Shown: positions 2,853-18,674 of the stretch, piece after piece
How positions within the stretch are numbered: position 1 is the first letter of the stretch
Layout of the letters: each line of letters starts with the position of its first letter
DNA from: a virus
Reading direction: 5' to 3' (one strand)
IMG/VR virus record: IMGVR_UViG_3300025137_005412
Coordinates: 62,001-126,000 of that record
DNA length: 64,000 nt
Made by a program: the position numbers and the translations under genes
The notes under the pieces: model-generated
The model's database searches: none
What the model was told of the DNA's origin: nothing
What the model saw: the letters and a program-made list of their open reading frames with translations, nothing else

Positions 2853-3296
2853 TTAAGCCTGTAAATATGTTAGCATTGTCTTAGCATCAGAACATTCAAA
2901 TGGATCAGCATCTACTTCACATTCATTGCATTTACCTTCTTCAACAAACATCTTTACAACTTGACCGTCATGTAATAAAGATGAATAACGCCATGATCTT
3001 GAACCAAATCCTTTATTCTTCTTAGTCACTAACATGTTTAGTTTGTTTGTTAGGTCACCATTGCCATCGGCAATATATTTTACTTTAGTAATTTCTTGCT
3101 TTTCAAACCAAGCTTTCATTACGAATTCATCATTTACTGAGATACAATATACCTCATCAATACCACACTTTTTAATCTCGTCATATAGTTCTTCATAACC
3201 TGGTAAATGTTGTGTAGAACAAGTTGGTGTAAATGCACCAGGCAATCCAAAGATTACCACTTTCTTATTATCGAATAGCTCTTTAAACTGAGACAT
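2853..3296 (-). CDS. peroxiredoxin, Prx5-like
   Basis: 147 residues. The N-terminal motif PGAFTPTC places the peroxidatic cysteine at C26, in the P-x3-T-x2-C setting of the Prx5 family, and the VNDEFVMKAW segment is typical of that group. Further Cys residues (for example in the KCNECEVD segment near residue 125) could act as resolving cysteines. It would reduce hydrogen peroxide or alkyl hydroperoxides. A good AGGAG site precedes the ATG, and a GTATAAT promoter candidate lies at 3327-3332. It heads the Prx-Grx-MaoC cassette. In some bacteria Prx5 and Grx are fused; here they are adjacent genes. Confidence 0.88.
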   Translation of the reverse strand: MSQFKELFDNKKVVIFGLPGAFTPTCSTQHLPGYEELYDEIKKCGIDEVYCISVNDEFVMKAWFEKQEITKVKYIADGNGDLTNKLNMLVTKKNKGFGSRSWRYSSLLHDGQVVKMFVEEGKCNECEVDADPFECSDAKTMLTYLQA

Positions 3297-3326
3297 ACTT
3301 TCTCCTTTACTTTAGTTTCTATAGGT

Positions 3327-3332
3327 ATTATA
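3327..3332 (-). promoter_or_regulatory. putative -10 element (GTATAAT)
   Basis: Minus-strand AAGTATAATACC about 30 bases before the peroxiredoxin ATG, in the 40-base gap between the glycosyltransferase stop and the peroxiredoxin start. It would drive the Prx-Grx-MaoC cassette. Confidence 0.45.
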
Positions 3333-3336
3333 CTTA

Positions 3337-4665
3337 TTATGCGAAAAAACTTTCAAGATCAGAAGCTTTTTCTTTTTGATGTACAGCTTTAGTTTTACTT
3401 ACTATATCTGAATACACATCGATAGCATCACAGTGAGACTTCCAAAACTCAAAAGCTTTATGTCTTTCTTCATCTCTCTTAGAATGATTAGTACTTAACA
3501 TTGATAATGTATCAGCAACCGCTGTATACTCATGATTAATCAAAGCTACCTTATGAGCATCTGCACCATAATTTCTTTGTTTAAAATTATCTGTAAGGAA
3601 CACTGTACCACTATTTTCACATGCAATAACTGGATCACCAATCTTATTGTGAATAATATGAGCACCAAAATGTTCATGGAATATAGGAACTGTACCAGCA
3701 CCTAAACAATCTGCATGACAGTATTCTATATTTGCACCATATTGTTCTGGCTTGAGATGATATAGATCAGAACCAAACATAGACTTTGCCATTCTTAACA
3801 TCATATCATGGTGTTGATAGCCAGGATAAAGATAAGCACCTTTATTTAGTTCTTCTTCACCATATTCAAACTTACCAGTTTCATCATATTCTTTTTCAGG
3901 CCTAAACTTATTTACTACATTCCATCTTGTTGATGGATCCTTATCATTTTTATATAAGATACCTTTATAACCTATTGATGCTTCTAATCCTTCAAGTATT
4001 GTAATGAATCCTCTATCCATCATTTTTTCTTGATGAAAATCAATTAGTTGCTGTGGACCTTTCCATCCAGCAGATCTACCAACCCATCTAATAATCTTTT
4101 CTTGTTCTTCAATTGGTTGCCAATACTTTTCTTTACCTTCATCAAAGTTATAACCTACACCTGCAGTTGTAATAGGAACTGAAATGTTTTCTTTCTCACA
4201 CCATTTAGAAAATGGATTAGTTGTAGCATGAGTCATAATAACATCTAAACATTCTAATACTTCTTTAAGTTTAGCATTACGATGAATTGATTGAATATTA
4301 TGATCAACCTGAACAATGCTTTTCTTAACATTAATTTTTTTTAATAACTCTATGAAGTTGTCAACACATTGTTCAGGGTGATTTTTAGATGGAACAGAAA
4401 AGACAATCAAAGCTTCACACTCATTTATCTCATCAATGACCTCAGTACAAGTCATTAGATCTGGAAACTTCTTAGTTGATTTACTAATATCTGACCAGTC
4501 TGCTCCTCTAAAATAGTTTACATCAAACTCCATGGAGTTTTGTCTTGGCCATACTTTATCCATAGTGGCATAGACTTTTACACCCATTAGTTTTTGGAAT
4601 TCTACTACATTCTTTGTGACACCGCAACCTTCGACACCACGACCCATAAGTACTGCTACAGTCAT
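3337..4665 (-). CDS. T4 alpha-glucosyltransferase (AGT)-like glycosyltransferase
   Basis: 442 residues, against about 400 for T4 AGT. From memory of the T4 protein, several blocks align well: the N-terminal Gly-rich loop (GRGVEGCGVTK, residues 8-18; T4 has ARGLEGCGVTK), a DHN-x-QS-x-HRN block, RWVGRSAGWKG followed by FH, and an EGLEAS block (T4 EGLERS). T4 AGT moves glucose from UDP-glucose onto hydroxymethylcytosine in DNA. The GalE-like gene overlaps the start by 4 bases (ATGA), so sugar-nucleotide supply is coupled. No hydroxymethylase or glycosylatable base pathway is visible in this window, so the acceptor (DNA base or glycan) is open. Confidence 0.8.
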   Translation of the reverse strand: MTVAVLMGRGVEGCGVTKNVVEFQKLMGVKVYATMDKVWPRQNSMEFDVNYFRGADWSDISKSTKKFPDLMTCTEVIDEINECEALIVFSVPSKNHPEQCVDNFIELLKKINVKKSIVQVDHNIQSIHRNAKLKEVLECLDVIMTHATTNPFSKWCEKENISVPITTAGVGYNFDEGKEKYWQPIEEQEKIIRWVGRSAGWKGPQQLIDFHQEKMMDRGFITILEGLEASIGYKGILYKNDKDPSTRWNVVNKFRPEKEYDETGKFEYGEEELNKGAYLYPGYQHHDMMLRMAKSMFGSDLYHLKPEQYGANIEYCHADCLGAGTVPIFHEHFGAHIIHNKIGDPVIACENSGTVFLTDNFKQRNYGADAHKVALINHEYTAVADTLSMLSTNHSKRDEERHKAFEFWKSHCDAIDVYSDIVSKTKAVHQKEKASDLESFFA

Positions 4666-5543
4666 TTGTTTTTACCTCTCTCTAAATTATACTGATCCAT
4701 ACACATATCTTCTAAACTCTTTGTTAGTGTAATCTTTTCTGATAATGTATCTACAGTTGAAGATTCAGCATCGCCTTCACGTCTACCACTTATCTTTATT
4801 GCTACACCTTTACCAGTGACTTTTCTCATTGTTTCAATAACTTCATTTACTGAATAACCTTCATTAGAACCTAAACATTCGTATGGTGTATTTGATGGTC
4901 CATCATCAACAGCATTACATATTGCATTTGCTAGGTCAACCACATGTACATAATCTCGTATGCATGTACCGTCTTTAGTATTATAATCAGTACCATATAC
5001 TTCCATCCAATCTCGTTTACCGCATGCAACCTCAGCAGCTACCCTTATTAAATGAGTTGATGGACCTATTTGTTTGTGTACACCATCTGAACCTGATACA
5101 TTGAAGAATCTAAATATTGTATATCCACCAGCTTTTTCTTTAATAACATCTTCAGCAGCTACTTTTGATTTGGCATAAGGTGATGCCATTTCCCATGCGG
5201 CTGATGTAGATGCAAATAAGATATGAGCCTTTGGAAACATTTCACATACACTTAATGTACCCATTACATTACTCACATAATAATCTGATGGTCTCTTCAT
5301 ACTTTCAGGTACTACTGACAATCCACCTAAATGAACTACTGCTTCATAGTCCGGATATAATTGAGATTTTCTATAGTCTCTTACATTATTATTATAATAA
5401 TTCTTTAAGTATTGGTTTACATCATTCTTATCTTCTCCATGAATATTAATATCCATGCCATCAATAATATGACCACGTTCATTTAGTATCTTACATACAT
5501 GTGAACCAATATATCCATTACAACCTGTGACTAAGACTCGCAT
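4662..5543 (-). CDS. UDP-glucose 4-epimerase-like SDR (GalE-like)
   Basis: 293 residues of the extended short-chain dehydrogenase family. The N-terminal Rossmann motif VTGCNGYIGSH binds NAD, and the catalytic Ser/Thr (STSAAW) and YAKSK (Tyr-x3-Lys) are present. An RDYVHVVDLA block, typical of GalE, is also visible. It likely interconverts UDP-glucose and UDP-galactose or a related sugar. It is a little short of the usual 320-340 residues. It overlaps the cytidylyltransferase gene by 13 bases and the AGT-like gene by 4. The exact sugar is inference. Confidence 0.85.
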   Translation of the reverse strand: MRVLVTGCNGYIGSHVCKILNERGHIIDGMDINIHGEDKNDVNQYLKNYYNNNVRDYRKSQLYPDYEAVVHLGGLSVVPESMKRPSDYYVSNVMGTLSVCEMFPKAHILFASTSAAWEMASPYAKSKVAAEDVIKEKAGGYTIFRFFNVSGSDGVHKQIGPSTHLIRVAAEVACGKRDWMEVYGTDYNTKDGTCIRDYVHVVDLANAICNAVDDGPSNTPYECLGSNEGYSVNEVIETMRKVTGKGVAIKISGRREGDAESSTVDTLSEKITLTKSLEDMCMDQYNLERGKNK

Positions 5544-5938
5544 ACTCTTCTCCTTAAATCTGACGATGAGAATCTATGTTCTCGTTTATTAAAATACAAA
5601 GATATACCACGCTTCTTACATACATCTTTACCAGTAAAATCTTTTTCTCTATACTCATCACCAAGAATTCTAACATCAATAGTATATAGTTCTAATATAT
5701 CTTCTAAATCTTTTTCAGTAGCATAAGGAATAATCTCATCAACATACTTTACTGCTTTGAGTTGTGTATATCTTTCTACTAAAGTTTGAATGGGTGAGTT
5801 CTTTTCTTTTCTATCAATCGATGGATCCACTTGCAAAGCACATATAAGATAATCACATTGTGACTTTGCATCTCTTAACATTTGTACATGACCTGCATGT
5901 AGCAAATCAAATGATGAACAGCTGAATCCAATCTTCAT
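5531..5938 (-). CDS. nucleotidyltransferase, TagD/glycerol-3-phosphate cytidylyltransferase-like
   Basis: 135 residues, one cytidylyltransferase domain of normal length. The nucleotide-binding HAGH motif (HxGH) is near residue 15, RILGDEY lies in the middle, and SSSDLRRR near the C-terminus stands in for the ISST-x-x-R motif. Family members join CTP to glycerol phosphate or ribitol phosphate, or ATP to heptose phosphate or pantetheine phosphate. It is the first gene of a sugar cassette with GalE and AGT-like proteins, suggesting an activated polyol or sugar precursor. The start lies six bases after a GTATAAT element, with almost no leader. Confidence 0.82.
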   Translation of the reverse strand: MKIGFSCSSFDLLHAGHVQMLRDAKSQCDYLICALQVDPSIDRKEKNSPIQTLVERYTQLKAVKYVDEIIPYATEKDLEDILELYTIDVRILGDEYREKDFTGKDVCKKRGISLYFNKREHRFSSSDLRRRVCES

Positions 5939-6417: not shown

Positions 6418-7842
6418 ATGATGAAATGGTTGCTACTTCCTGTAGCTTTAACAATCTCTGCGATCGCTGCTTTCTACTCAATCTATGGATTGGTAGCTAT
6501 ATTTGCCGCGGCCGTGATACCAATTATAATCATGGGTACAGCCCTTGAGATTGGTAAACTTGTATCCGTTGTATATCTACATCAGTACTGGGTAGAAACT
6601 AAGTTTCTCTTAAAGAGCTATCTAGTGTTGGCTGTTGCACTTCTCATGTTTATTACATCATTAGGAATATTTGGATTCCTTTCTAAGGCTCATGTTGAGC
6701 AAGCATCTTTAAGTGAAGAGCAGGTTGCTTTAATTGAAACACTTGAAGATAAAGAAATCAGATCAGAATTAAAAATTGAAAGATGGAATAAAGAGCTAAC
6801 CAAGCTATTAAACAATGAAGATACACGTGTAGACACTCTTATAGGAAATGAGCAAGATCAACTCAATAGTTTATATGATAGAATTGATAAAGAAAAAACC
6901 ACAGCTGCTGATAGATTTGATAATGCTAAGGCTGCAGCAAACAAGGCTTACACTCAAAAAGTAAAAACAATCAATGATACAATAACAGGCTTTGGCTCTC
7001 AAAGTAAGAAGACAGATCAAATTGAAATTGCAAATGGTGAGCTTAAAAAAGAATTAAGTAGTATTGAAAAGAAATACAATAATGAAGTAGAAGATATTGA
7101 TACTAAATATAAAGACGAAATTTTAGAATTACAAAATGTAATTAAAGGTTATAGAAATCAAGTCACAGAAAAAACTGGTGATATTGATATAAAGATTGTT
7201 GAATTAGAATCTAAGATAGATGCTGAACAAAAAATAATTGATGAAGTCATTGGTGAAAAAGGAATCTATGAGAAAGAATATAGAAAGCTTGAAGCTGAAG
7301 TCGGACCAATTAAATATATTGCTGAACTTATCTATGGCGAAACTGATAGAGGTTTATTAGAAGATGCTGTAAGATGGGTTATTATTATATTAGTTATTGT
7401 ATTTGATCCTCTAGCGGTTGCGTTATTAATAGCATGGAATGATATTATAAAACGTGAATATCCAAGAAGTCCATATCCAATTCCTAAAATAAGAAAACCT
7501 GAACCGGTAGAACCAGAAAAAAAAACTGAAGAACCCGAAGAAGAAGAGCATTGGTTAGAAGAAGAACCAAAGGTTGAGGTTAAAGAAGAAGTTGAAGTAG
7601 AAAAGGATTACGAAAAAAGCCATTACTATAATATGGGTGGACAAAAAGTAAAAGCAAATCCTAAAACACTAAAAGACTTTATGGAAGAAACACCTGATTT
7701 CTTCGCGCAGCTAGCGGATGAAATGGGTGGAAGAGTAGAATATGATAGTGACGCTGCACAGATAGATGTTCCTGAAGATGTATTGGAACAATTACCTGAT
7801 GGTACTTATAGAAAGAAAGAACCGAAGCGTACAAGAATTTAA
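6418..7842 (+). CDS. membrane-anchored coiled-coil protein (474 aa), conserved marine T4-like type
   Basis: N-terminal hydrophobic helices (about residues 4-26, 28-48 and 65-88) are followed by a long charged coiled coil (about 95-300, Lys/Glu/Asp-rich heptads). Another hydrophobic helix (about 315-340) and an acidic Pro/Glu-rich cytoplasmic tail complete it. A similar layout, including a FLSKAH-type motif after the third helix, is familiar to me from myophages of marine cyanobacteria, where the function is unknown. It is the first gene of the curli operon and may organise a membrane complex. No enzymatic motif is visible. Confidence 0.75.
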   Translation: MMKWLLLPVALTISAIAAFYSIYGLVAIFAAAVIPIIIMGTALEIGKLVSVVYLHQYWVETKFLLKSYLVLAVALLMFITSLGIFGFLSKAHVEQASLSEEQVALIETLEDKEIRSELKIERWNKELTKLLNNEDTRVDTLIGNEQDQLNSLYDRIDKEKTTAADRFDNAKAAANKAYTQKVKTINDTITGFGSQSKKTDQIEIANGELKKELSSIEKKYNNEVEDIDTKYKDEILELQNVIKGYRNQVTEKTGDIDIKIVELESKIDAEQKIIDEVIGEKGIYEKEYRKLEAEVGPIKYIAELIYGETDRGLLEDAVRWVIIILVIVFDPLAVALLIAWNDIIKREYPRSPYPIPKIRKPEPVEPEKKTEEPEEEEHWLEEEPKVEVKEEVEVEKDYEKSHYYNMGGQKVKANPKTLKDFMEETPDFFAQLADEMGGRVEYDSDAAQIDVPEDVLEQLPDGTYRKKEPKRTRI

Positions 7843-7851
7843 GGTTTTAAT

Positions 7852-8133
7852 ATGAAAGAGTTTATGATATTGCTAAGTGAATTTGGATTGCCAGTGGCTG
7901 GTGCAGTCGTAATGGCAGTATTCATTTATATTATATTAAGATATATTCTAGATTCAGTGGTTGGTCAAGCCACAACTCTCAAATCAATTATAACTCAATT
8001 AGATAATCGTGTTAAGAACATGAATAATGACATGATAAAACTCGATATACAAATAACTCATGTGTTAGGTTTAAAGCCAGATGAAGAACGTATATCAAGA
8101 GCCAATGGTAAAGAAGATGCGAGAAGAGATTAA
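7852..8133 (+). CDS. small single-span membrane protein, holin-like
   Basis: 93 residues. One hydrophobic helix (about 10-32) is followed by a short coiled coil (about 45-70) and a charged tail. The size and layout match BhlA/UviB-type holin-like proteins, but many other small membrane proteins look the same. It overlaps the next gene, its apparent paralogue, by 1 base. Its place inside the curli operon makes an envelope role likely; lysis is only one option because a separate holin and lysozyme lie at 34929-36052. Confidence 0.6.
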   Translation: MKEFMILLSEFGLPVAGAVVMAVFIYIILRYILDSVVGQATTLKSIITQLDNRVKNMNNDMIKLDIQITHVLGLKPDEERISRANGKEDARRD

Positions 8134-8411
8134 TGAAAATCGTAATTGAAATTTTAACTGTATACGGATTTCCAACTTTAGCTGCTATAGCAATGGGTTG
8201 GTTTATTTGGTTTGTCTATAATTTCACTACAAAAAATATCAAAAAGAAACTTGGTGAAACTAATGTAGTTCTTATTGCTTTGTTAGATAGAATCAGAATG
8301 CTTGATAATGATATTATAAGATTGCGTTCTAAACTAGACACAATCATTCAGATGAAAGAGAATGAAAAGCCGTCTAAATCACATACCGTAACTAAAGATT
8401 CTAATAAATAA
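8133..8411 (+). CDS. small single-span membrane protein, paralogue of the preceding gene
   Basis: 92 residues with the same plan as its upstream neighbour: helix at about 8-30, then a coiled coil with DRIRMLDNDIIRL resembling DNRVKNMNNDMIKL in the neighbour, and a Lys/Ser tail. The two probably arose by duplication and may form hetero-oligomers in the inner membrane. It starts with a TAATG overlap. The function is unknown; a holin-like or scaffold role in the curli-cyclase operon is inference. Confidence 0.6.
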   Translation: MKIVIEILTVYGFPTLAAIAMGWFIWFVYNFTTKNIKKKLGETNVVLIALLDRIRMLDNDIIRLRSKLDTIIQMKENEKPSKSHTVTKDSNK

Positions 8412-8414
8412 TAT

Positions 8415-8930
8415 ATGATAAAAGCACAACTAAAGATAGGTGTGCTGCGTACTTGGGTTGTTATGTTTCTTGCGGTGATAGTGGCAGCCCTACTCCCGAC
8501 AAATCTCTCAGCTAGTGAACTGAACTTTGAGTTTGGCAACCCCGCATTCTCAAAGCAAGGCTACTCTTCACATGTATTATCTATCGAGCAATTACAATAT
8601 TCACGAGATAAAGATAACGAGAAAGATAAAAAATCAGAAGCAGCATCGGCAGAAAGAGATCTAAATAATACAACTATTGCTAAGTTTATTAAGAACGTAG
8701 AATCAAGAATTTATGCCAACCTTTCTAAACAATTGGTTGATAATATGTTTGGTACTAACTGTGTAAATACAGATGCCATTACATGTGCAACTTCAGGTAC
8801 CGCAGAAGTAGAAGGTGCCACAATATATTGGGTGAGAGACGATACTACTGATACAATAACTTTAACCGTAACTGATGATACAAATAATACTACAACAATC
8901 ACTGTTCCTATCGGAGACTTTCTTTTCTAA
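8415..8930 (+). CDS. csgF: curli assembly factor CsgF-like
   Basis: 171 residues with an N-terminal signal peptide (cleavage probably after A33). The mature N-terminus SELNFEFGNPAF fits the CsgF start, in which an aromatic/NPxF segment plugs into the CsgG channel; E. coli CsgF has TFQFRNPNF. The C-terminal part (DTITLTVTDDTNNTTTITVP) matches the beta-rich CsgF tail. In bacteria CsgF couples secretion to nucleation of curli at the outer surface. It is directly followed by csgG. No csgE, csgC or csgD is visible. Confidence 0.85.
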   Translation: MIKAQLKIGVLRTWVVMFLAVIVAALLPTNLSASELNFEFGNPAFSKQGYSSHVLSIEQLQYSRDKDNEKDKKSEAASAERDLNNTTIAKFIKNVESRIYANLSKQLVDNMFGTNCVNTDAITCATSGTAEVEGATIYWVRDDTTDTITLTVTDDTNNTTTITVPIGDFLF

Positions 8931-8939
8931 TAGAAATGT

Positions 8940-9770
8940 ATGCAGATGAAAACAATTGCACTTTTAACATTAATGTCATTGATGATAACTGGGTGTGTAA
9001 GCACTCCAGATAAGATAGATTATTATATTGATAAACCTGTTTTTGCACACAGTACTCCGACATCTGAATTACTAGAAACTTTACCAGCTCTTGATGGTGA
9101 TATTATTACTATTGCAGTATATAGTTTTTTAGATAAAACTGGTCAAAGAAAACCAAGTACAAAGTTTTCTCAATTATCAACAGCCATATCTCAAGGTGCA
9201 GATGTATGGGTTATACAAGCTTTAAAAGAAGCAGGTGATGGAACCTGGTTTAAAGTTGTTGAAAGAATGGGATTAGATAATGTAATAAAAGAAAGACAGC
9301 TTATACGTTCTACAAGAGAAGCGTATGATGGAGATCAAGCTGTAGGAAATTCTTTAAAGCCTCTAATATTTGCCGGTCTCTTATTAGAAGGTGGAGTCGT
9401 AGCCTACGATACTAATATCGATACAGGTGGAAGCGGCGCAAGATACTTTGGCATTGGTATATCTGAAGAATATCGGGTAGATCAAGTCACTGTTGCTATG
9501 AGAATCGTTGCTGTACAGACAGGCGAAGTTTTAATTACCGTATCAGGTACTAAAACAATTGCTAGTCATAAATCAGGAACGGATGTATTTAGATTTCTCG
9601 ATATGGGAACTAAAGCATTAGAAATAGAGAGCGGAGTTGCTATGAACGAGCCAGTAAATTATGCCATTCGATCAGCTATCGAATATTGCGTTATAGAAGT
9701 AATTAAACAAGGAAAAGACCAAGGTCTTTGGAAATATAAGGAGATAAAATATGAAAAAGATGTTCATTAG
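8940..9770 (+). CDS. csgG: curli secretion channel CsgG-like lipoprotein
   Basis: 276 residues. It begins with a lipoprotein signal (MITGC, lipid-bearing C19; a second ATG six bases on is equally possible). The body follows CsgG: an IAVYSFLDKTGQRKP block, the WFKVVERMGLDNVIKERQLIR block, the GARYFGIG segment and the closing VTVAMRIVAVQTGEVL strand region. CsgG forms a nonameric outer-membrane pore that exports curlin subunits. Length agrees with E. coli CsgG (277 aa precursor). It overlaps the curlin gene by 20 bases, so secretion and substrate are coupled. Confidence 0.93.
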   Translation: MQMKTIALLTLMSLMITGCVSTPDKIDYYIDKPVFAHSTPTSELLETLPALDGDIITIAVYSFLDKTGQRKPSTKFSQLSTAISQGADVWVIQALKEAGDGTWFKVVERMGLDNVIKERQLIRSTREAYDGDQAVGNSLKPLIFAGLLLEGGVVAYDTNIDTGGSGARYFGIGISEEYRVDQVTVAMRIVAVQTGEVLITVSGTKTIASHKSGTDVFRFLDMGTKALEIESGVAMNEPVNYAIRSAIEYCVIEVIKQGKDQGLWKYKEIKYEKDVH

Positions 9771-10443
9771 CTTTTTAGTCATTTCGTTTCTTAGTTTAAC
9801 AGGTACATTATTAGCGAATGATATTTATGTCACACAAAGTGGTAATACACTTGACTTAGATATTACGCAAGATGGCCAAAACAATACTGTTGGTAATTCT
9901 ACCACATCATCATCGGTTGTAGGTGCTACATCTACTATTGATATTGATCAAGTAGGAAATAGTAATGTGTTAACTTTTGATGTTAACGGTGCTAGTTATA
10001 CCGGTACTTTTAGTACTACGGGTAATTCCAACAATATTGATTTTAATTGTGATAGTACTGCAGGAAATAGTTCATGTGCTACAGTCACAAGTAATATAAC
10101 ATGGGTTGGTAGTTCCAATGATTTAGATATAGACATTGGAGAAACCTCTGCGGCTGGTGGCGGTACAGTAGCTATAACAGGAGCAAGTGGTTCCGATTCA
10201 AACGTTATTGCTGCAACTGTCGATGGCACAAGCGCTATCTTAACCTTGACTGTTAACGGAGATACGAATAACTGGTTGATAGATATTGATGGTAATGGAG
10301 ACATTAACGGCCATACGTTAATTCACACCCATACCGGTGGTATTGCTGATGTAGATATAGTTCAGAGTGGTGTTAATGATGCCATTATAAACTTAACTAC
10401 TGTAGGTGATAATCACGATATTGATATAAGTCAAACAGACTAA
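9751..10443 (+). CDS. curlin-repeat protein, CsgA/CsgB-like
   Basis: 230 residues with a signal peptide (cleavage near residue 22). The mature start NDIYVTQSGN, then DLDITQDGQNN, has the curlin repeat pattern of alternating hydrophobics with Gln-x-Gly-x-x-Asn. Further repeats are degenerate but keep the GNSN/GDTN and DIDQ signatures, and the end IDISQTD is repeat-like. There are two Cys near residues 92-102. It is preceded by a strong AAGGAGA site inside csgG and overlaps the FecR gene by 1 base. It is probably an amyloid-like fibre subunit exported by CsgG. Confidence 0.85.
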   Translation: MKKMFISFLVISFLSLTGTLLANDIYVTQSGNTLDLDITQDGQNNTVGNSTTSSSVVGATSTIDIDQVGNSNVLTFDVNGASYTGTFSTTGNSNNIDFNCDSTAGNSSCATVTSNITWVGSSNDLDIDIGETSAAGGGTVAITGASGSDSNVIAATVDGTSAILTLTVNGDTNNWLIDIDGNGDINGHTLIHTHTGGIADVDIVQSGVNDAIINLTTVGDNHDIDISQTD

Positions 10444-11570
10444 TGCGTGTTATAATAAAGAGTATTGCTCTCATTGTGGCGGTGAGTATAGTGTTTTTGT
10501 ATGGCAATAAAGTTTATGCTAATACCATAGGAGATGTCATATTACAAGAGGGCAATACTGTTATAGAACAAAGTGGAGAAGATAATATATCTGTCGAAGG
10601 ACTAGGTATATTTTCTTATGATGTCGTTAAGACGGGAAATGGTAAAACTGCTATCTCGTTTATTGACGACACTCGCGTTGATGTCACTGAACATTCAAAA
10701 CTCATAATTGACGAGTTTGTATTTGATCCTGTAAACAATAAAGGATCACTCTCATTGAAAGCAACTTTAGGAACTGTACGTTATGCTTCTGGCCAGATAG
10801 CAAAGAACTATGCACAGAACGTAAGTATAACTACTCCAACTGCAACAATCGGAGTAAGAGGAACTGATTTTAGTATGACCGTCGATGAAATTGGCGGATC
10901 AACAATTATACTATTACCATCATGCAATACAAGTGGATATTGTTATGTAGGAGAAATTGAAGTTGAAACAGATGCTGGATTTGTAATAATGAATCAAGCA
11001 TTCCAAGCAACTGTAGTCACAACAGGTGAAACAAAACCTATGAAGCCTGTCATCTTAGATCTAGATGAAACAATGATAGGTAATCTTTTAATAATTCAGA
11101 AACCACCAGAAATTAAAGAACAGCAAGAAAAAGCTGAGTATAATGAAGTAGCAAATGCTCTTGATATAGACTTCTTAGAATTTAATGATTTAGAAGTTGA
11201 TGAGCTTGAACTTGAAAATGATACATGGGCTACTGGTCTAGATATAGATTTTTTAGAACAAAACTTCTTAGTAGATGTATTAGATCAAATTAATAAAGAA
11301 CTTGCAAAAGCAATGAGATCAGCATTTGCAAAATCAGAACAAGATACTATTGGTAATATAAAACTTGGTAAGGATCCTGAAACTGGTATCTTTATATTAG
11401 ATGAAGATCCTCAATGGGTGTATGGTAGAGAAGGACCATCCAATTATTTTGAATTAAGATTAGATAGAGAGTTTGGATATATTATTAGTTTTACTCAAGG
11501 CGATTTTGAAATATATGACTTTGAATTAGGAGGACAGGATAATGAGATCCGCATTTTTCAAAGCAATTAG
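10443..11570 (+). CDS. FecR-domain periplasmic protein
   Basis: 375 residues with a signal peptide (cleavage near A26). Residues about 27-175 form a FecR domain: IGDVILQEG, then SYDVVKTGNGKTAISFIDDT, then a beta-strand ladder with TPTATIGVRGTDF, the usual landmark. The rest is acidic and Leu/Asp-rich (LDIDFLE twice), perhaps a partner-binding region. In bacteria FecR domains are periplasmic sensors or scaffolds and, to my recollection, are often encoded beside CHASE2 proteins. Here a CHASE2 cyclase is two genes downstream, so a sensor pair is plausible. Confidence 0.85.
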   Translation: MRVIIKSIALIVAVSIVFLYGNKVYANTIGDVILQEGNTVIEQSGEDNISVEGLGIFSYDVVKTGNGKTAISFIDDTRVDVTEHSKLIIDEFVFDPVNNKGSLSLKATLGTVRYASGQIAKNYAQNVSITTPTATIGVRGTDFSMTVDEIGGSTIILLPSCNTSGYCYVGEIEVETDAGFVIMNQAFQATVVTTGETKPMKPVILDLDETMIGNLLIIQKPPEIKEQQEKAEYNEVANALDIDFLEFNDLEVDELELENDTWATGLDIDFLEQNFLVDVLDQINKELAKAMRSAFAKSEQDTIGNIKLGKDPETGIFILDEDPQWVYGREGPSNYFELRLDREFGYIISFTQGDFEIYDFELGGQDNEIRIFQSN

Positions 11571-12861
11571 TATTCTATTTTTTGTTCTATTAATGAATGA
11601 TACTGTCGAAGCTGGTTCATTGAACTATGAGGTGTTTGCAATTACATCATACGCTCCATATTTAGAAGCACCTTGTTTTGATGGTGGTAATTATCTTTCT
11701 ACATGTAATAATACTAATCCAGCGTATAGAGGTGCTTCACAGGGAAGTGGTACTCTTGACAGTTTAAATTACAACTGGAATAGTGGCAATATTAATATTG
11801 GTGGCAATAATTATAGTGGATCATATAGAATGATAGTTATCACAGGATATTGGCAACATCCAGGAACTGCAGGTCAAACATCAACTGTATATTTTGCTGG
11901 TCGTAATGATGATGGTCTTATAGTAAATATTAATAATACTAAAGTAATATCTGACTGGGCACAACAAGGTCCAACATATTGGAACTCTAATGGTTCATTT
12001 TCTGGTGTGGGTGGTCAATGGTATCCGATAAATATAAACTGGTATGAATGGAGTGGTTCTGCCAATATGGATATTCATTATAGAATTGATGGTAATAATG
12101 CTACTAATACAACATCTGGTTGGTTAGATATGAACAACAATCATTTTGCCTTGACATTAACTGTGCAAGCAGGTATAACTTCATCTCAACAAACTTCAGT
12201 GACTAATACAAAGAATACATCAAGCACTACAAATAACATATACATAACACAAAGTGGTAGCAATGTAGATCTTAGTATACTACAAGATGGTGATAATAAT
12301 GTGGTGATAGGAACTGACTTAACATCTGCAGGTGTAATCAGTGGAGATAATAATGATGTAGATATAGCACAATATAGTAATAACAATATATTAGGAATTG
12401 ATATAAGCGGTAATTCAAATGATGTTGATATTTGGCAAGACCTAAATCAACGAGCAATAATAGATATTAATGGAGCATCAAACACTTTAGCTTTAAAACA
12501 AGAAGATCTCAATGGTTCAGGTGCTCACTATACTAACATAGATCTTGATGGTAATAACAATATACTAAGCTTATGGCAAAAAGAAACTGGTGATAAGATC
12601 TTATTTATGGATATTGGCAATAGTAATAACGTGACTACATTACAACATGGAACTGGTGATCATTTTCTTGATATAAATCTTGGTGATAGTCATACTGTAA
12701 ATGTAGAACAGGATGGTTCTGGAACTCATAATGCTTATATTAATTTGACAGGAAATTCTTCCTCACTTACATTAACACAAGATAGTTCAAGCAATATGAA
12801 TTATCATTTAAATCAGAATTGTACTAATCCAAGTTGCTCAGCAACGGTGACACAGAACTAA
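11542..12861 (+). CDS. PA14-like domain fused to curlin repeats
   Basis: 439 residues with a signal peptide (cleavage near A24). Residues about 90-185 look like a PA14 domain: the FAGRNDDGLIVNINNTKVI strand pair, then WYPININWYEWSG and a DIHY strand. PA14 domains often bind carbohydrate. From about residue 232 to the end there are around nine curlin-type repeats (IYITQSGS, ILQDGDNN, GNSNDVDIWQ and similar). The first repeat is nearly the same as in the curlin gene at 9751, suggesting co-polymerisation. A strong GGAGG site lies inside the FecR gene. Likely a fibre tip or adhesive subunit. Confidence 0.8.
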   Translation: MRSAFFKAISILFFVLLMNDTVEAGSLNYEVFAITSYAPYLEAPCFDGGNYLSTCNNTNPAYRGASQGSGTLDSLNYNWNSGNINIGGNNYSGSYRMIVITGYWQHPGTAGQTSTVYFAGRNDDGLIVNINNTKVISDWAQQGPTYWNSNGSFSGVGGQWYPININWYEWSGSANMDIHYRIDGNNATNTTSGWLDMNNNHFALTLTVQAGITSSQQTSVTNTKNTSSTTNNIYITQSGSNVDLSILQDGDNNVVIGTDLTSAGVISGDNNDVDIAQYSNNNILGIDISGNSNDVDIWQDLNQRAIIDINGASNTLALKQEDLNGSGAHYTNIDLDGNNNILSLWQKETGDKILFMDIGNSNNVTTLQHGTGDHFLDINLGDSHTVNVEQDGSGTHNAYINLTGNSSSLTLTQDSSSNMNYHLNQNCTNPSCSATVTQN

Positions 12862-14726
12862 TGAAGAAAATATTTACACATTGGACATTTGCATTTGTCA
12901 CGCTCTTTATCCTTACATATATAGGATTACAAGATCCTACAGTAAAAGAAATATTACGTCTAAAATCATTTGACTTTCTTATTCAATCACAAGAAAAATC
13001 AATGTCAAAAGATATTATTATTGTAGAAATTGACGAGGCTACAATAGAAAAATACGGTCAATACCCATTTAACAGAAGTGTATATGCAGATCTAATATTA
13101 AAGTTAAGAGAGAATGAAGCTGGCGTAATTCTATTTCCAATATTATTTTCTGAAGAAGATAGACAAGGTGGTGATGAATACTTTGGAGATGTATTACAAT
13201 ATGGCACTGTTATTGCACAAGTAGGTACAACACAAATAAACAAGAATGCGGTACCAAGAGGTGTTGCAAAGATTGGAGATCCAATACCATTTTTATTTGA
13301 ATGGCCTGGAATGTTAGGACCGATTCCTGAATTAAAATCAAATGGTGTAGGTGTAATTAATACTGTACCTGAAATTGATGGTGTTGTAAGAAGAATACCA
13401 TTGCTTATGAGAATTGGTGAAGAAGTTTATCCGTCAATGGCAATTGAAATGATAAGAGTTGCAGTAGGTGATCCATCATACCAAGTGAAAGCTGATGCTA
13501 ATGGTATCACTGCTATGCGGGTACCCGGGTACGCGACCATACCCACGGACATGCATGCACGGGTCTGGTTGAATTATAATAAGACCTTTGATTCTATCTC
13601 ATTAGTAGACGACGACTTGCATTATGAACTAGTAAAAGGCAAAACAGTCATAGTTTCTTTAACCGCTGAAGGTCTTAATAACATTATAGCTACACCATTA
13701 GGTGAACAATATTCACATACAATAATAGCAAACAACATTCAAACAATTATTGATGGTGATAATATTATTAGAAATGATTTACAATTACTAGAACTTTTAA
13801 TTGCATTCATGGCTTCTGCTTGTTTTATAGCATTAACAAGAATAGCACCTTATTGGATTATTGGTGTAGGTCTTATTGGTGCATATATAGTGAGTGTATA
13901 TGGTACATACTTTATGTTTCATCAAACAAAAGAGATGTATGATGTAAGTTGGTTTCTTATCATGATTACATTTGTAAGTTTACATGCAATCTTTAATAGA
14001 TTCATACTAGAGTTTAATTTAAAACAACAAATAAGAAAACAATTTGAAAAGTATCTTGATCCAAGACAAGTTGCTATATTACAAAAGAATCCAGATAAGA
14101 TTAAACTAGGTGGTGATAGAAAAGAAATGAGTTTCTTATTTATGGATATTGTAGGTTTCACACCGATATCAGAACATTACAAAAATCAAGATGATCCAGA
14201 AGGATTAGTCGAAGTCATTAATGATTATCTAAATAGAATGACTAAGATTGTTTTAAGAAATGGTGGTACTGTAGACAAATATATGGGTGATTGTATTATG
14301 GCATTTTGGAATGCACCACTTGATTGTGATAATCATGCGGATCTTGCGGTACAAACAGCAATTGAATGTGCTGAAGAAACAGAAATAATTAAAGAAGAAT
14401 TTAAAGCAAAAGGTTTACCTGAAATTAATATTGGAAGTGGTGTAAATACTGGTACTTGTATTGTAGGTAATATGGGTAGTGAAATGAGATTAGATTATTC
14501 AGTGATTGGTGATTCAGTAAATCTTGCCGCTAGATTAGAAGCTGCAACTAGAAACTATAAAGATAAAGATGGTAATGTAGCTACATTATTATATTCACAA
14601 CATACTAAGGATTTACTAACTAATGTAGAGTCTATCGAAGTGGATAAGATAAAAGTTAAAGGTAAAGAAGAATTAATTACTATCTACTCACCACTATCTA
14701 CAAGTTCTGCTTCTAAACCTGGATAG
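12861..14726 (+). CDS. CHASE2-domain membrane-bound class III nucleotide (probably adenylate) cyclase
   Basis: I start at 12861, where the ATG overlaps the preceding TAA (TAATG); a longer frame begins at 12834. The 621 residues comprise an N-terminal membrane helix, an extracytoplasmic CHASE2 domain (about 30-300) and two to three membrane helices (about 310-395). The class III cyclase domain (about 425-600) follows. The catalytic set looks complete: metal aspartates D429 (MDIVGF) and D477 (KYMGD), K473 that favours ATP over GTP, and transition-state N554 and R558 (NLAAR). S547 takes the place of the usual second Asp/Thr of the purine pocket. It would make cAMP in response to an envelope signal. 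Its last 43 bases overlap the convergent radical SAM gene. Confidence 0.92.
   Translation: MKKIFTHWTFAFVTLFILTYIGLQDPTVKEILRLKSFDFLIQSQEKSMSKDIIIVEIDEATIEKYGQYPFNRSVYADLILKLRENEAGVILFPILFSEEDRQGGDEYFGDVLQYGTVIAQVGTTQINKNAVPRGVAKIGDPIPFLFEWPGMLGPIPELKSNGVGVINTVPEIDGVVRRIPLLMRIGEEVYPSMAIEMIRVAVGDPSYQVKADANGITAMRVPGYATIPTDMHARVWLNYNKTFDSISLVDDDLHYELVKGKTVIVSLTAEGLNNIIATPLGEQYSHTIIANNIQTIIDGDNIIRNDLQLLELLIAFMASACFIALTRIAPYWIIGVGLIGAYIVSVYGTYFMFHQTKEMYDVSWFLIMITFVSLHAIFNRFILEFNLKQQIRKQFEKYLDPRQVAILQKNPDKIKLGGDRKEMSFLFMDIVGFTPISEHYKNQDDPEGLVEVINDYLNRMTKIVLRNGGTVDKYMGDCIMAFWNAPLDCDNHADLAVQTAIECAEETEIIKEEFKAKGLPEINIGSGVNTGTCIVGNMGSEMRLDYSVIGDSVNLAARLEAATRNYKDKDGNVATLLYSQHTKDLLTNVESIEVDKIKVKGKEELITIYSPLSTSSASKPG
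13517..13535. repeat. GC-rich palindrome inside the cyclase gene
   Basis: GCGGGTACCCGGGTACGCG contains the perfect 12-base palindrome GTACCCGGGTAC and shares GCGGGTAC with the palindrome at 6376-6397 upstream of the same operon. The surrounding 50 bases are strikingly GC-rich and use codons (CGG, CCC, GGG, ACG) that are rare in the neighbouring genes. It encodes part of the CHASE2 domain, so it must satisfy protein constraints as well. Confidence 0.45.
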
Positions 14727-16261
14727 TAGTTATCCCCGTAAATTTGTTTCTTTGCATAGTTGTAGGCAAATGCAGCGGTCTTTCTTTCCATATGTTCCCA
14801 ATTAATATCTTTTTGTTTTGTATGTTGTATCTTTCTAAAGTCTTCATCAATAGCTGTTAATTGCATGAGTCTAAATCCAGCAGGCTTAACAAATTCGTTA
14901 GAAGCATAATTGAATTCAACACATGCTCTATTTGCTGTAGATGAATTGAAGTTTCCTTGTTTCCAATATAATCCATTACCTGGAATAGGAAACTTATATC
15001 CCCATTTCTGAGCATCTCTATCAAACTTACTCATTTGTATTTCACCTGGTTTTTCATGTTGATTAATATAAAGTGCTTGAAAAATCCAATATCCAGGTTG
15101 ATGTTTTACTAACCAATCCCATGTCTCTTGTAAATTTTCTTGTGTTTCTCCTGGTAATCCAATAATAAATCCTAATTCAAATGTGATTTCATCTTTCCAA
15201 TCATTCATTAATTCTTCCATGAATTCTTTACCCATTCTACCATTCCAACCTTTACCAATTGCTTTCGAAGCTTCTGGATGAAATGATTCGATACCAAAGA
15301 ATGGTGATACTAATCCTATCTCTCTTAATAAATCTTTCTGCGCTTTCCTTGCCCATATTAAATCCAATCTATGATAACCTACATACTTTAAATCAAATGG
15401 CAAGTCACTTGATATTTTTGCAAGTTGTTCCATCTTATCCATATCCTCATTAAATGTATCATCAGTAAAGATATATTTTGTTGTACCGAATGTTTCATAG
15501 TTATATAAGAACTCATCTTCAATTCTCTTGTAATCTCTTATATAAGTTCCTTTCTTTTTTCCAATTAGTGGATATGAACAGAATGAACATTCAAATTGAC
15601 AGCCTCTACCCATCTCCATAAGTAAAGCTTCATTAGAACCTATAGATAAGTTAGTACCAATGTACGCACGATTTGATTGTTTTATATCAAAATCTTTTCT
15701 TACACCAGCAAAATTACTTCTTTCATCGAGATATTTTAAGAAAGCATCTTCAGCAAAGCCATGAATCTTTCTCCAATTAAATTCCATATTACCATAGTGT
15801 GATTGTGAACCTCCCATTACCCAATCTAATTTTGGATATTTTCTTTCTAATTCTGTTCTTGCATTAATTACCCAGTAAGGTTCTTCAGTTCTATTTGGAC
15901 CAGCCATCATATTAGTAAAGTTCTGATCGAATAGTTTTCTTTTTTGTGTTGGATCGTTTGAATGACCGACTTGATCACCAACTGATGTAGTGTATGTATT
16001 TGTTTTTTGAGAACCTTTTGCTTTCTTCATCCTTACACTTGGATGCCAGAAAGATGTACTTACACCGATACCAATTGTTTCAGGACCGATATGTTTCTCA
16101 TTAATTTCTATAAAATCTTTGTGTTGTAGTAAATGACTGAAGTCAATTACTTTTACGTTGTACCCATGTTGAATACACCATGACGCAAGTTGATGTGGAC
16201 CTAATGGTCTTATTGGAGCGTAATCCTCCGCAAGACAATTCCATATAACAAAATGCGCCAT
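14684..16261 (-). CDS. radical SAM protein with B12-binding-like N-terminal region
   Basis: 525 residues. The radical SAM iron-sulfur motif CxxxCxxC is at C221, C225 and C228 (CQFECSFC), and GIESF and GFIIGLPGET further on are typical of the SAM-binding barrel. The N-terminal 200 residues resemble a cobalamin-binding fold in layout, but I do not see the DxHxxG cobalamin motif. The substrate is unknown. It is the last gene of the minus-strand replication unit, 17 bases after gp32. It needs a 4Fe-4S cluster, which fits the IscU and A-type carrier genes encoded nearby. Confidence 0.85.
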   Translation of the reverse strand: MAHFVIWNCLAEDYAPIRPLGPHQLASWCIQHGYNVKVIDFSHLLQHKDFIEINEKHIGPETIGIGVSTSFWHPSVRMKKAKGSQKTNTYTTSVGDQVGHSNDPTQKRKLFDQNFTNMMAGPNRTEEPYWVINARTELERKYPKLDWVMGGSQSHYGNMEFNWRKIHGFAEDAFLKYLDERSNFAGVRKDFDIKQSNRAYIGTNLSIGSNEALLMEMGRGCQFECSFCSYPLIGKKKGTYIRDYKRIEDEFLYNYETFGTTKYIFTDDTFNEDMDKMEQLAKISSDLPFDLKYVGYHRLDLIWARKAQKDLLREIGLVSPFFGIESFHPEASKAIGKGWNGRMGKEFMEELMNDWKDEITFELGFIIGLPGETQENLQETWDWLVKHQPGYWIFQALYINQHEKPGEIQMSKFDRDAQKWGYKFPIPGNGLYWKQGNFNSSTANRACVEFNYASNEFVKPAGFRLMQLTAIDEDFRKIQHTKQKDINWEHMERKTAAFAYNYAKKQIYGDNYYPGLEAELVDSGE

Positions 16262-17243: not shown

Positions 17244-17831
17244 CTAGCTTGATATAAAAGTATCTCTTGCAATACCTTCATAATATTTATACTCCAGTTT
17301 ATTAATTATAAATGGTTTATACTTCTTGACTTTCTTGATATAATCAGGCCAGACAAAAGGTAATTTAACCATCGCTTCGTGCTTCTCCAAAAACGGATAT
17401 ATATTATCTAATAATACCACGGATTCAAGATTTATTTCGCTTTTCATCACTTTATCATGAATTAATGGTATTGAATCTTTTGTAGCTTCTAACATTTTAG
17501 ATGGACCAACTTCTTTTATATGTATCATATCATCTTTAAATAGTTGTGGCATTCTTCTTATCTTACTTTTCCATTCTTCGAAAGTGGACTTATTCATATT
17601 CTTTATCCAGCATTTTGGATTATCAATAAAGTGTGAGACTAGAAAGTCTTCTATATCTGATGGCTCTATTACTTTAGTTAGCTTTTCAAATGAGAACATA
17701 TCATTTCTTTTTTGATATGCATCTGTTGAAGCTTTTACTTTACCACCAAACTTGTGATAATCATAGTTGCTTGTAAAGTGTCTTTGTAATGCAAGGTATT
17801 TTAAGTAAGCGAGATATCCTGTCTTTGTCAT
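17244..17831 (-). CDS. 59: helicase loader gp59
   Basis: 195 residues, slightly shorter than T4 gp59 (217). Shared landmarks with T4 gp59 are the DAYQKRNDMF block near the N-terminus (T4 DAAYQKRRDKYFF), a central WIKNMN/EEWKSKIRRM region and a C-terminal LLDNIYPFLEKHE block (T4 LLDSFLNIIDKHD). It loads the gp41 helicase onto gp32-coated DNA. It lies next to gp32 as in T4. It overlaps the alternative oxidase gene by 4 bases (ATGA). Confidence 0.88.
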   Translation of the reverse strand: MTKTGYLAYLKYLALQRHFTSNYDYHKFGGKVKASTDAYQKRNDMFSFEKLTKVIEPSDIEDFLVSHFIDNPKCWIKNMNKSTFEEWKSKIRRMPQLFKDDMIHIKEVGPSKMLEATKDSIPLIHDKVMKSEINLESVVLLDNIYPFLEKHEAMVKLPFVWPDYIKKVKKYKPFIINKLEYKYYEGIARDTFISS

Positions 17832-18391
17832 GTACTATACCTATAATTTATTTCTGCATGTTTCTCTTCATCAGCTCTTATCTTTATAATAATATCTCTG
17901 AGTGTTGAATCATCTTTTAAATTATAGTACTGTTTTGCTAGCTTTGTTGCTGGAATATTTTCAGCTTGTCCAGAATCAACCATGTGTAAGTATTGTGTAT
18001 AAGATATTACAGCTTCTTTCTCAAAGTAATGTATCATTCTGTGAGCTGTCTTTGGAAAGAATACAAACAGAAAAAAGTAAAATACAAGAAAGATAAATTG
18101 TGCAAATAATACTATCCATCTTTCTAACCATGTAGGTTTTGCTATATCAATAAAAATCATGAGATGCATTCTTTCATTCTCAGCTTCATCCATCATCTCT
18201 CTTATCTTAGGACCAAGACCAGCTTCCATTTTTCTTAATGATTTCATGTGTAGCCATACACCAGCTACAATACCTGGAACACCTGCAATAGTCTCTAATA
18301 CTATTGCTCTATGCCCATATCTCTTTGCAAAGAACGTGTCAGCTATGAGCCGAAAGAAGGAGGTCATAGATCTTGCAAACTTATCAGACAA
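17828..18391 (-). CDS. aox: alternative oxidase (AOX), di-iron quinol oxidase
   Basis: 187 residues. All AOX signature motifs are present: LETIAGVPG (E33), ENERMHL (E73, H76), FEKEA (E124/E126) and RADEEKH (E175, H178), giving the six di-iron ligands. A very hydrophobic stretch at about 92-112 would seat it in the membrane. AOX oxidises ubiquinol and reduces oxygen to water without pumping protons. The sequence reads like bacterial/mitochondrial AOX rather than a plastid-type oxidase. It is wedged between gp59 (4-base overlap) and gp33 (8-base overlap), so it is expressed with replication and late-transcription genes. Confidence 0.93.
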   Translation of the reverse strand: MSDKFARSMTSFFRLIADTFFAKRYGHRAIVLETIAGVPGIVAGVWLHMKSLRKMEAGLGPKIREMMDEAENERMHLMIFIDIAKPTWLERWIVLFAQFIFLVFYFFLFVFFPKTAHRMIHYFEKEAVISYTQYLHMVDSGQAENIPATKLAKQYYNLKDDSTLRDIIIKIRADEEKHAEINYRYST

Positions 18392-18674
18392 GGCTATTGA
18401 CCTTATACTTTAACATATTTAGGTCAGAAGCATCTTTCTCAATCTTTTCTTTTATATTCTTAGGCAACATTAACTTCATACCTTCTACTTCTAATCCATA
18501 TTTTTCACAGACATATACTACAGCATCAATATAATTACCACCACCAGATGCTACAACTTCTTCTATTTCTTTTGGTAGGTTTTTAACTTTAGCTTGGAAA
18601 TCACTATCTGTAATTTCTTTTTTCCTTGCAGATAACTTGGGTAAGGTATCGTTGTCTTCTAATCCTATTTGCAT
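18384..18674 (-). CDS. 33: late transcription co-activator gp33-like
   Basis: 96 residues, near the size of T4 gp33 (112). The central YIDAVVYVCEKYGLEVE segment and the C-terminal LPKNIKEKIEKDASDLNML match cyanophage gp33 as I recall it. In T4, gp33 bridges RNA polymerase to the sliding clamp at late promoters together with gp55. In T4 it follows 59 in the same 32-59-33 cluster, and the order is kept here except for the AOX insertion. It overlaps the 75-aa gene upstream by 1 base. Confidence 0.8.
   Translation of the reverse strand: MQIGLEDNDTLPKLSARKKEITDSDFQAKVKNLPKEIEEVVASGGGNYIDAVVYVCEKYGLEVEGMKLMLPKNIKEKIEKDASDLNMLKYKVNSLV

Follow-up and report, generated by a model that had tools for sequence, protein, structure and literature searches.

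The curli locus and its nine genes

The window analysed here, a stretch of 64,000 nucleotides, lies within a 152 kb virus record. At positions 6418-14726 it carries nine open reading frames, all on the plus strand and following one another with overlaps or gaps of a few bases, as the first-pass annotation had placed them (Table 1). The flanks encode a T4-like ssDNA-binding protein and a helicase loader, and the source phage is a T4-like relative of pelagiphage HTVC008M. B, C, CsgF, CsgG, FecR and the cyclase all have PHROGs matches and thus belong to phage families already known. Neither a riboswitch nor a tRNA was found in the window.

Table 1. Features of the curli locus, in window coordinates
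Feature	Coordinates	Strand	Basis
Gene 1 (gene A), membrane protein, 474 aa	6418..7842	+	hydropathy
Protein B, small TM and coiled-coil protein, 93 aa, phrog_18771	7852..8133	+	PHROGs
Protein C, paralogue of B, 92 aa, phrog_18771	8133..8411	+	PHROGs
CsgF, curli nucleation/assembly factor, signal sequence	8415..8930	+	Pfam PF10614 5.3e-11, residues 19-165
CsgG, outer-membrane lipoprotein secretion pore subunit	8940..9770	+	Pfam PF03783 6.2e-53
Curlin-repeat fibre protein 1, 230 aa, no extra head	9751..10443	+	PF07012 0.0045
FecR-domain protein, signal sequence, conserved C-terminal hxhxQ strand	10443..11570	+	PF04773 1.6e-8
Second fibre protein	11542..12861	+	AF2 model, Foldseek PDB, HMM vs PDB, Pfam
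Hypervariable head segment of second fibre gene	11604..12203	+	72-94% identity to L004
CHASE2-domain class III adenylate cyclase	12861..14726	+	PF05226 2.9e-42, PF00211 (Guanylate_cyc) 3.8e-18

Just upstream of the module, on the minus strand, positions 2853-5938 hold peroxiredoxin-like and surface-sugar genes, which places them beside a lectin-like fibre; the sugar genes (3337-5938) resemble those for a glucosyltransferase, a nucleotide-sugar epimerase and a heptose adenylyltransferase. Downstream, 14684-16261 on the minus strand encodes a protein of 525 residues that looks radical-SAM-like by reading and has no PHROGs match.

Pfam agrees with the identities first given to CsgF, CsgG, the two curlin-repeat proteins, FecR and the CHASE2 cyclase, the curlin repeats being weak in both fibre proteins (0.0045 in the first and 5e-4 in the second). 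For CsgG and CsgF, homology spans the full length; the CsgG profile retrieves solved CsgG from the PDB with an E-value of 4e-67, and the predicted lipobox is borne out by a Cys19 that is invariant in 23 homologues. The second fibre protein matches NCBIfam CsgB (3.5e-6), and its family profile finds, through the body, weak matches to the solved curlins 8c50 (E 0.007) and 8enq (E 0.27). Three features of type VIII secretion are present, namely CsgG with a lipobox, CsgF, and curlin-repeat subunits with weak but consistent scores and signal sequences judged by hydropathy. Family searches gave no CsgE match among the nine module proteins; the CsgE gate aids export, yet it has been reported as non-essential (PMC7029224). 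We also considered loss of the aromatic CsgG constriction as a special feature of the phage pore, which has Leu at the E. coli Phe56 position, and rejected it because Leu is also found there in some bacterial CsgG.

Gene 1 encodes, by hydropathy, three N-terminal TM-like segments, a coiled coil, a further TM-like segment at 311-344 and a charged tail. The much smaller B and C (92-93 residues) each have one N-terminal TM-like segment and a short coiled coil, and they may dimerise and link membrane proteins. Conserved motifs are LDNRVxxMNND and a C-terminal GKxDARRD in B, and LDRIRMLDND in C; neither protein has a Pfam kinase domain or a conserved His. Judged by its length and motifs, B is no histidine kinase. 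PMC9599517 places a 'histidine kinase' in front of the pelagiphage CsgF-to-cyclase gene set, and if B or C is the gene meant there, that name should be dropped.

Conservation in phages and relation to bacterial modules

The csgF and csgG genes were described in pelagimyophages in 2020 (PMC7029224) and in phage Melnitz in 2022, where a role in lysis was proposed (PMC9004378). PMC9599517 (2022) reports CsgF, CsgG, CsgA/B, FecR, a second CsgA/B and an adenylate cyclase in podo- and myo-pelagiphages, together with expression of these genes in metatranscriptomes. The pelagiphage order csgF-csgG-curlin-fecR-(curlin)-(cyclase) is that of the window, and the genomes of HTVC008M and Melnitz directly show the same order, with the same gene families; the window's CsgG and cyclase are 50-66% identical to theirs. 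Given that report and these two genomes, the gene combination is already known: what the window holds here is the type VIII secretion (curli) module previously described from pelagiphages, and the first-pass view that the full combination could be assigned to no described system does not stand. Record MW574966 of PMC9599517 has no T8SS annotated.

Conservation was assessed over 80 IMG/VR csgG loci, counting only those whose contig reaches far enough to be testable. A homologue of fibre protein 1 follows csgG in 60 of 60 such viral loci, FecR adjoins the csgG region in 42 of 42, the cyclase is present nearby in 29 of 29, and B or C is present in 74 of 75; in L014 both the cyclase and B/C lie on the opposite strand. 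The cyclase and FecR genes are not, then, usually elsewhere in relatives, and both gene content and conservation agree with the proposal of one phage locus that combines a curli pore and fibres with a co-conserved FecR and CHASE2 cyclase. Gene A is the exception to the nine-gene unit originally drawn; detected in just 10 of the 80 loci, it falls outside the conserved module. By reading of the sequence, IscU-/IscA-like iron-sulphur scaffold genes occur in or beside the curli module in L011 and L012 (both 14010-14492), L116 (5082-6111) and L268 (9597-10838).

Bacterial curli (csg) loci encode homologous CsgG, CsgF and curlin repeats, while the phage operon differs from them in having no CsgE or CsgD family match. 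The flanks of 72 bacterial csgG loci, some on short contigs, contain no homologue of the phage FecR, B or C, and the phage cyclase profile gives a single weak match in these loci, at the edge of L136. Of 22 bacterial CHASE2 proteins scanned, in genomes that also have curli, 9 nevertheless have a FecR-domain gene as their upstream neighbour, and a FecR-CHASE2 cluster has been described in Campylobacterota (PMC9239204). Because FecR, B and C were not found in those bacterial csgG flanks and the FecR-CHASE2 pairing exists without curli, the phage module unites two modules that are usually separate in bacteria, which agrees with PMC9599517. The bacterial clusters, which outside Campylobacterota come mainly from alphaproteobacteria, likewise place a secreted FecR-domain protein beside a CHASE2 class III cyclase. 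The Campylobacterota cluster has in addition a cAMP phosphodiesterase and a TPR protein, whereas the phage pair sits in a curli operon and its likely hosts mostly have no cNMP-binding domains.

A bacterial origin of the whole combination was considered and rejected: the full module occurs on 'bacterial' contigs only in MAGs, and the contigs inspected (L100, L101 and L116) carry phage-like genes by reading. Phage-type curli modules are binned into Pelagibacter, Flavobacteriaceae, Rhodobacteraceae and Pirellulales MAGs (L095-L101, L116 and G049:C1), and such contigs could mislead surveys of bacterial curli. Separately, OR851715.1, an unannotated sequence of 1499 bases named as a Salmonella phage, also codes for a CsgG, with 41% identity to that of the window; it is probably host sequence.

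Architecture and head exchange of the second fibre protein

The second fibre protein consists of a signal sequence, a PA14-type head (about residues 23-210), a curlin body (about 230-425) and a Cys-containing C-terminal cap. Its curlin body had been recognised in the first-pass annotation and its head overlooked. In an AlphaFold2 model built with 20 relatives (mean pLDDT 74.5), the head is rich in beta structure and is followed by a ladder of short strands. When the PDB was searched with Foldseek, 42 matches were obtained at E<=0.001, of which 41 are PA14-type structures, with the best E-values down to 1e-6. They are mostly sugar-binding adhesins (Flo1, Flo5, Epa1/6/9, Cea1 and the Marinomonas PA14), and they include two PA14-containing anti-sigma proteins, 6qdi and 6qe7. 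The head model is moderate, with target-normalised TM-scores mostly of 0.4-0.64 and identities of 11-18%. At the sequence level, the family profile likewise finds, through the head, the PA14 proteins 6qe7 (1.3e-5) and 6qdi in the PDB, and Pfam PA14 scores above its cut-off in relatives L002, L032 and L058, the window protein itself being below it (19.3 vs 24). These matches assign a PA14 fold to the head. The second fibre protein of HTVC008M has a PA14 head as well. Asp123-Asp124-Gly125 is invariant in seven aligned PA14-headed relatives, and presumably occupies the position of the Asp-Asp pair of PA14 lectins. Judging from the fold, the head looks like that of a sugar-binding adhesin, which suggests that it may bind sugars.

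What the protein shares with PA14 adhesins such as the flocculins Flo1/Flo5, Epa and the PA14 of Marinomonas MpAFP is the head fold, presumably the Asp-Asp-Gly motif, and the beta-rich repetitive stalk that comes after the head. Unlike in those proteins, whose stalk is wall-anchored or RTX, the phage stalk is a curlin-type repeat of the kind secreted by the T8SS. The main text of PMC9599517 does not mention PA14 and does not appear to describe head exchange, and no paper that brings together curlin, a PA14 domain and phage was found in the open-licence literature. What is new here is a modular second curlin protein with an exchangeable, fast-changing PA14-type head.

Heads differ in kind as well as in sequence. 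By a rough, heuristic classification, in which the Pfam ThuA match is weak, 68 distinct second fibre proteins fall into 15 with a PA14 head, 20 with a Rossmann/ThuA-like head, 23 that are headless and 10 that are very short. The head is thus not essential to the module, about half of these proteins being without a PA14 or Rossmann-like head; the second curlin of Melnitz is headless too. Bodies at least 80% identical are joined to heads of about 45% identity or less in 35 pairs (L020 and L045, for example, share 88% in the body and 28% in the head), and the reverse pattern, with like heads on unlike bodies, is seen in 25.

Close relatives show the same at finer scale. The window is 95-100% identical to the near-identical locus L004 along the module and drops to 72-94% in the head segment, the two heads (residues 24-210) differing at 38 aligned positions. 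Per site, head differences exceed those in the rest by 25-fold in this pair, 22-fold in L005/L007 and 16-fold in L011/L012 (p<=7.3e-12), the cyclase being excluded from the last ratio since this gene contains a separate divergent patch. A single head bin, at 91%, interrupts the 99-100% identity of L032 and L033, and between L031 and L032 nearly the whole fibre gene is replaced within flanks of 94-100% identity. Two further differences lie outside the fibre gene: the L011/L012 cyclase patch just mentioned, about 50% identical at roughly 15401-15600 (end of CHASE2 or the TM region), is a second exchanged segment, and a gene-sized indel of about 500 bases at 17804-18400, around the ORF at 17828-18391, separates the window from L004.

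Head dS reaches 0.41 and 0.27, against no more than 0.04 in neighbouring genes, and head dN/dS is below 1. Since silent sites are so strongly affected, the heads were most likely replaced by recombination with divergent alleles and not by point selection alone. All these pairs come from metagenome assemblies and the substitutions are clustered within a few hundred bases, so chimeric contigs or a diversity-generating retroelement might be suspected; we hold either to be highly improbable. An assembly artefact fits poorly with four independent pairs and one whole-gene swap in which reading frames stay intact, or with the same head in L005 and L006, which derive from different samples. A retroelement was rejected: searches of the window's record and of ten records from related phages (some of them partial genomes) gave no RVT_1, the head DNA has no duplicate in the records searched that could serve as template repeat, and the many silent differences (dS 0.41) are unlike adenine-targeted mutagenesis. 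With no reverse transcriptase found, recombination is the likeliest cause of head change.

Putative signalling pair and possible functions of the module

The catalytic residues first read in the cyclase are confirmed by its class III motifs, FMDIVGFT (436), KYMGD (482) and DYSVIGDSVNLAARLE (554); residues 436-569 supply the metal Asp pair, the Lys/Asp adenine pair and the Asn/Arg pair. K[YF]xGD is kept in all 29 relatives, and the FMDIVGFT and DYSVIGDSVNLAARLE motifs in 23 of them. By its family, we take the enzyme to be an adenylate rather than a guanylate cyclase. Its start needs correction from TTG 12834 to what is most likely ATG 12861, as that codon forms a TAATG overlap with the curlin stop and relatives begin MKKIFTHW. 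FecR is a secreted protein with a FecR domain only; it contains no anti-sigma domain, and the operon has no sigma factor or TonB receptor of the FecA-FecR-FecI type. An hxhxQ strand ends FecR in 46 of 46 homologues, as it does the fibre proteins (50 of 52 for curlin 1). FecR was accordingly tried as a curlin and rejected, since aligning its profile with that of curlin 1 gives no significant match (probability 2%) and AF2 yields a poor model (pLDDT 50.8); the idea is kept as a lead.

The first-pass idea that the pair turns envelope state into cAMP retains an intact cyclase and loses an obvious receiver. No cNMP-binding domain was detected in this record, six related phages or two Pelagibacter MAGs, the host of this phage being inferred from relatives; among 79 Pelagibacter-family genomes, which may be incomplete, 4 encode such a domain and 75 do not. 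Of the 79, 3 encode a class III cyclase, in two cases on the same contig as csgG, as in the phage module. The scarcity of cNMP-binding domains calls for a receptor of another family or for another role of the cyclase, which makes the cAMP output step doubtful and sharpens the question of the phage cyclase's partner.

We propose that, during infection, the phage would equip the outer membrane with a CsgG pore of its own, together with CsgF, and through this pore the two curlin-repeat proteins would be exported and displayed on the infected cell as amyloid-like fibres. The fibre would present the PA14-fold head of the second fibre protein, which may bind a glycan or other ligand, probably a host-cell surface glycan that differs from strain to strain; the swapping of heads between phages by recombination would be expected of a part whose ligand varies in this way. 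The periplasmic FecR and the CHASE2 cyclase would act as a sensor pair, derived from a pairing that bacteria have independently of curli, and probably report export or envelope state. To a displayed, adhesive curli fibre on the infected cell we give slightly better than even credence. Melnitz carries the module and no clumping was seen in Melnitz-infected cultures (PMC9004378), which, with the missing CsgE match, counts against it. More tentatively, phages of the most abundant marine bacteria may furnish infected cells with an adhesin of phage make, amyloid fibres with interchangeable lectin heads whose specificity is exchanged by cassette, much like that of tail-fibre tips, with FecR-CHASE2 monitoring through some cyclic-nucleotide receptor.

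The same machine could bring another benefit if the head binds glycans of its own cell or rival virions and masks receptors, as superinfection exclusion or a decoy. This possible but doubtful role is already proposed in PMC9599517 and agrees with a head that varies like a part tracking variable glycans and with the sugar genes just upstream on the other strand (3337-5938); the PA14 matches, however, are cell-cell and cell-surface adhesins, which fit aggregation equally well. CsgG and CsgF have also been seen as a gated secretin or pinholin that times lysis, as PMC9004378 proposed for Melnitz. The pore proteins are indeed conserved, and B and C resemble holins in size, if in nothing else, but a curlin fibre protein lies beside csgG in 60 of 60 loci, the curlins treated as missing in that work are found here and in PMC9599517, and lysis has no need of a rapidly exchanged lectin-like head; we consider it improbable. 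An ungated CsgG admitting cofactors or siderophores, with FecR as iron sensor (PMC9599517; uptake also in PMC7029224), would suit the FecR family name and the lack of a CsgE match. It is scarcely credible for an operon that has neither sigma factor nor TonB receptor, whose FecR is of the secreted stand-alone type paired with CHASE2, and which always encodes fibres alongside.

Since 2020, proposals for the pelagiphage curli genes have ranged from sibling capture to lysis timing. That an adhesin-like head is exchanged so fast suggests that these genes serve specific binding, and the PA14-type head offers a small, testable domain through which pelagiphage curli function may be approached.
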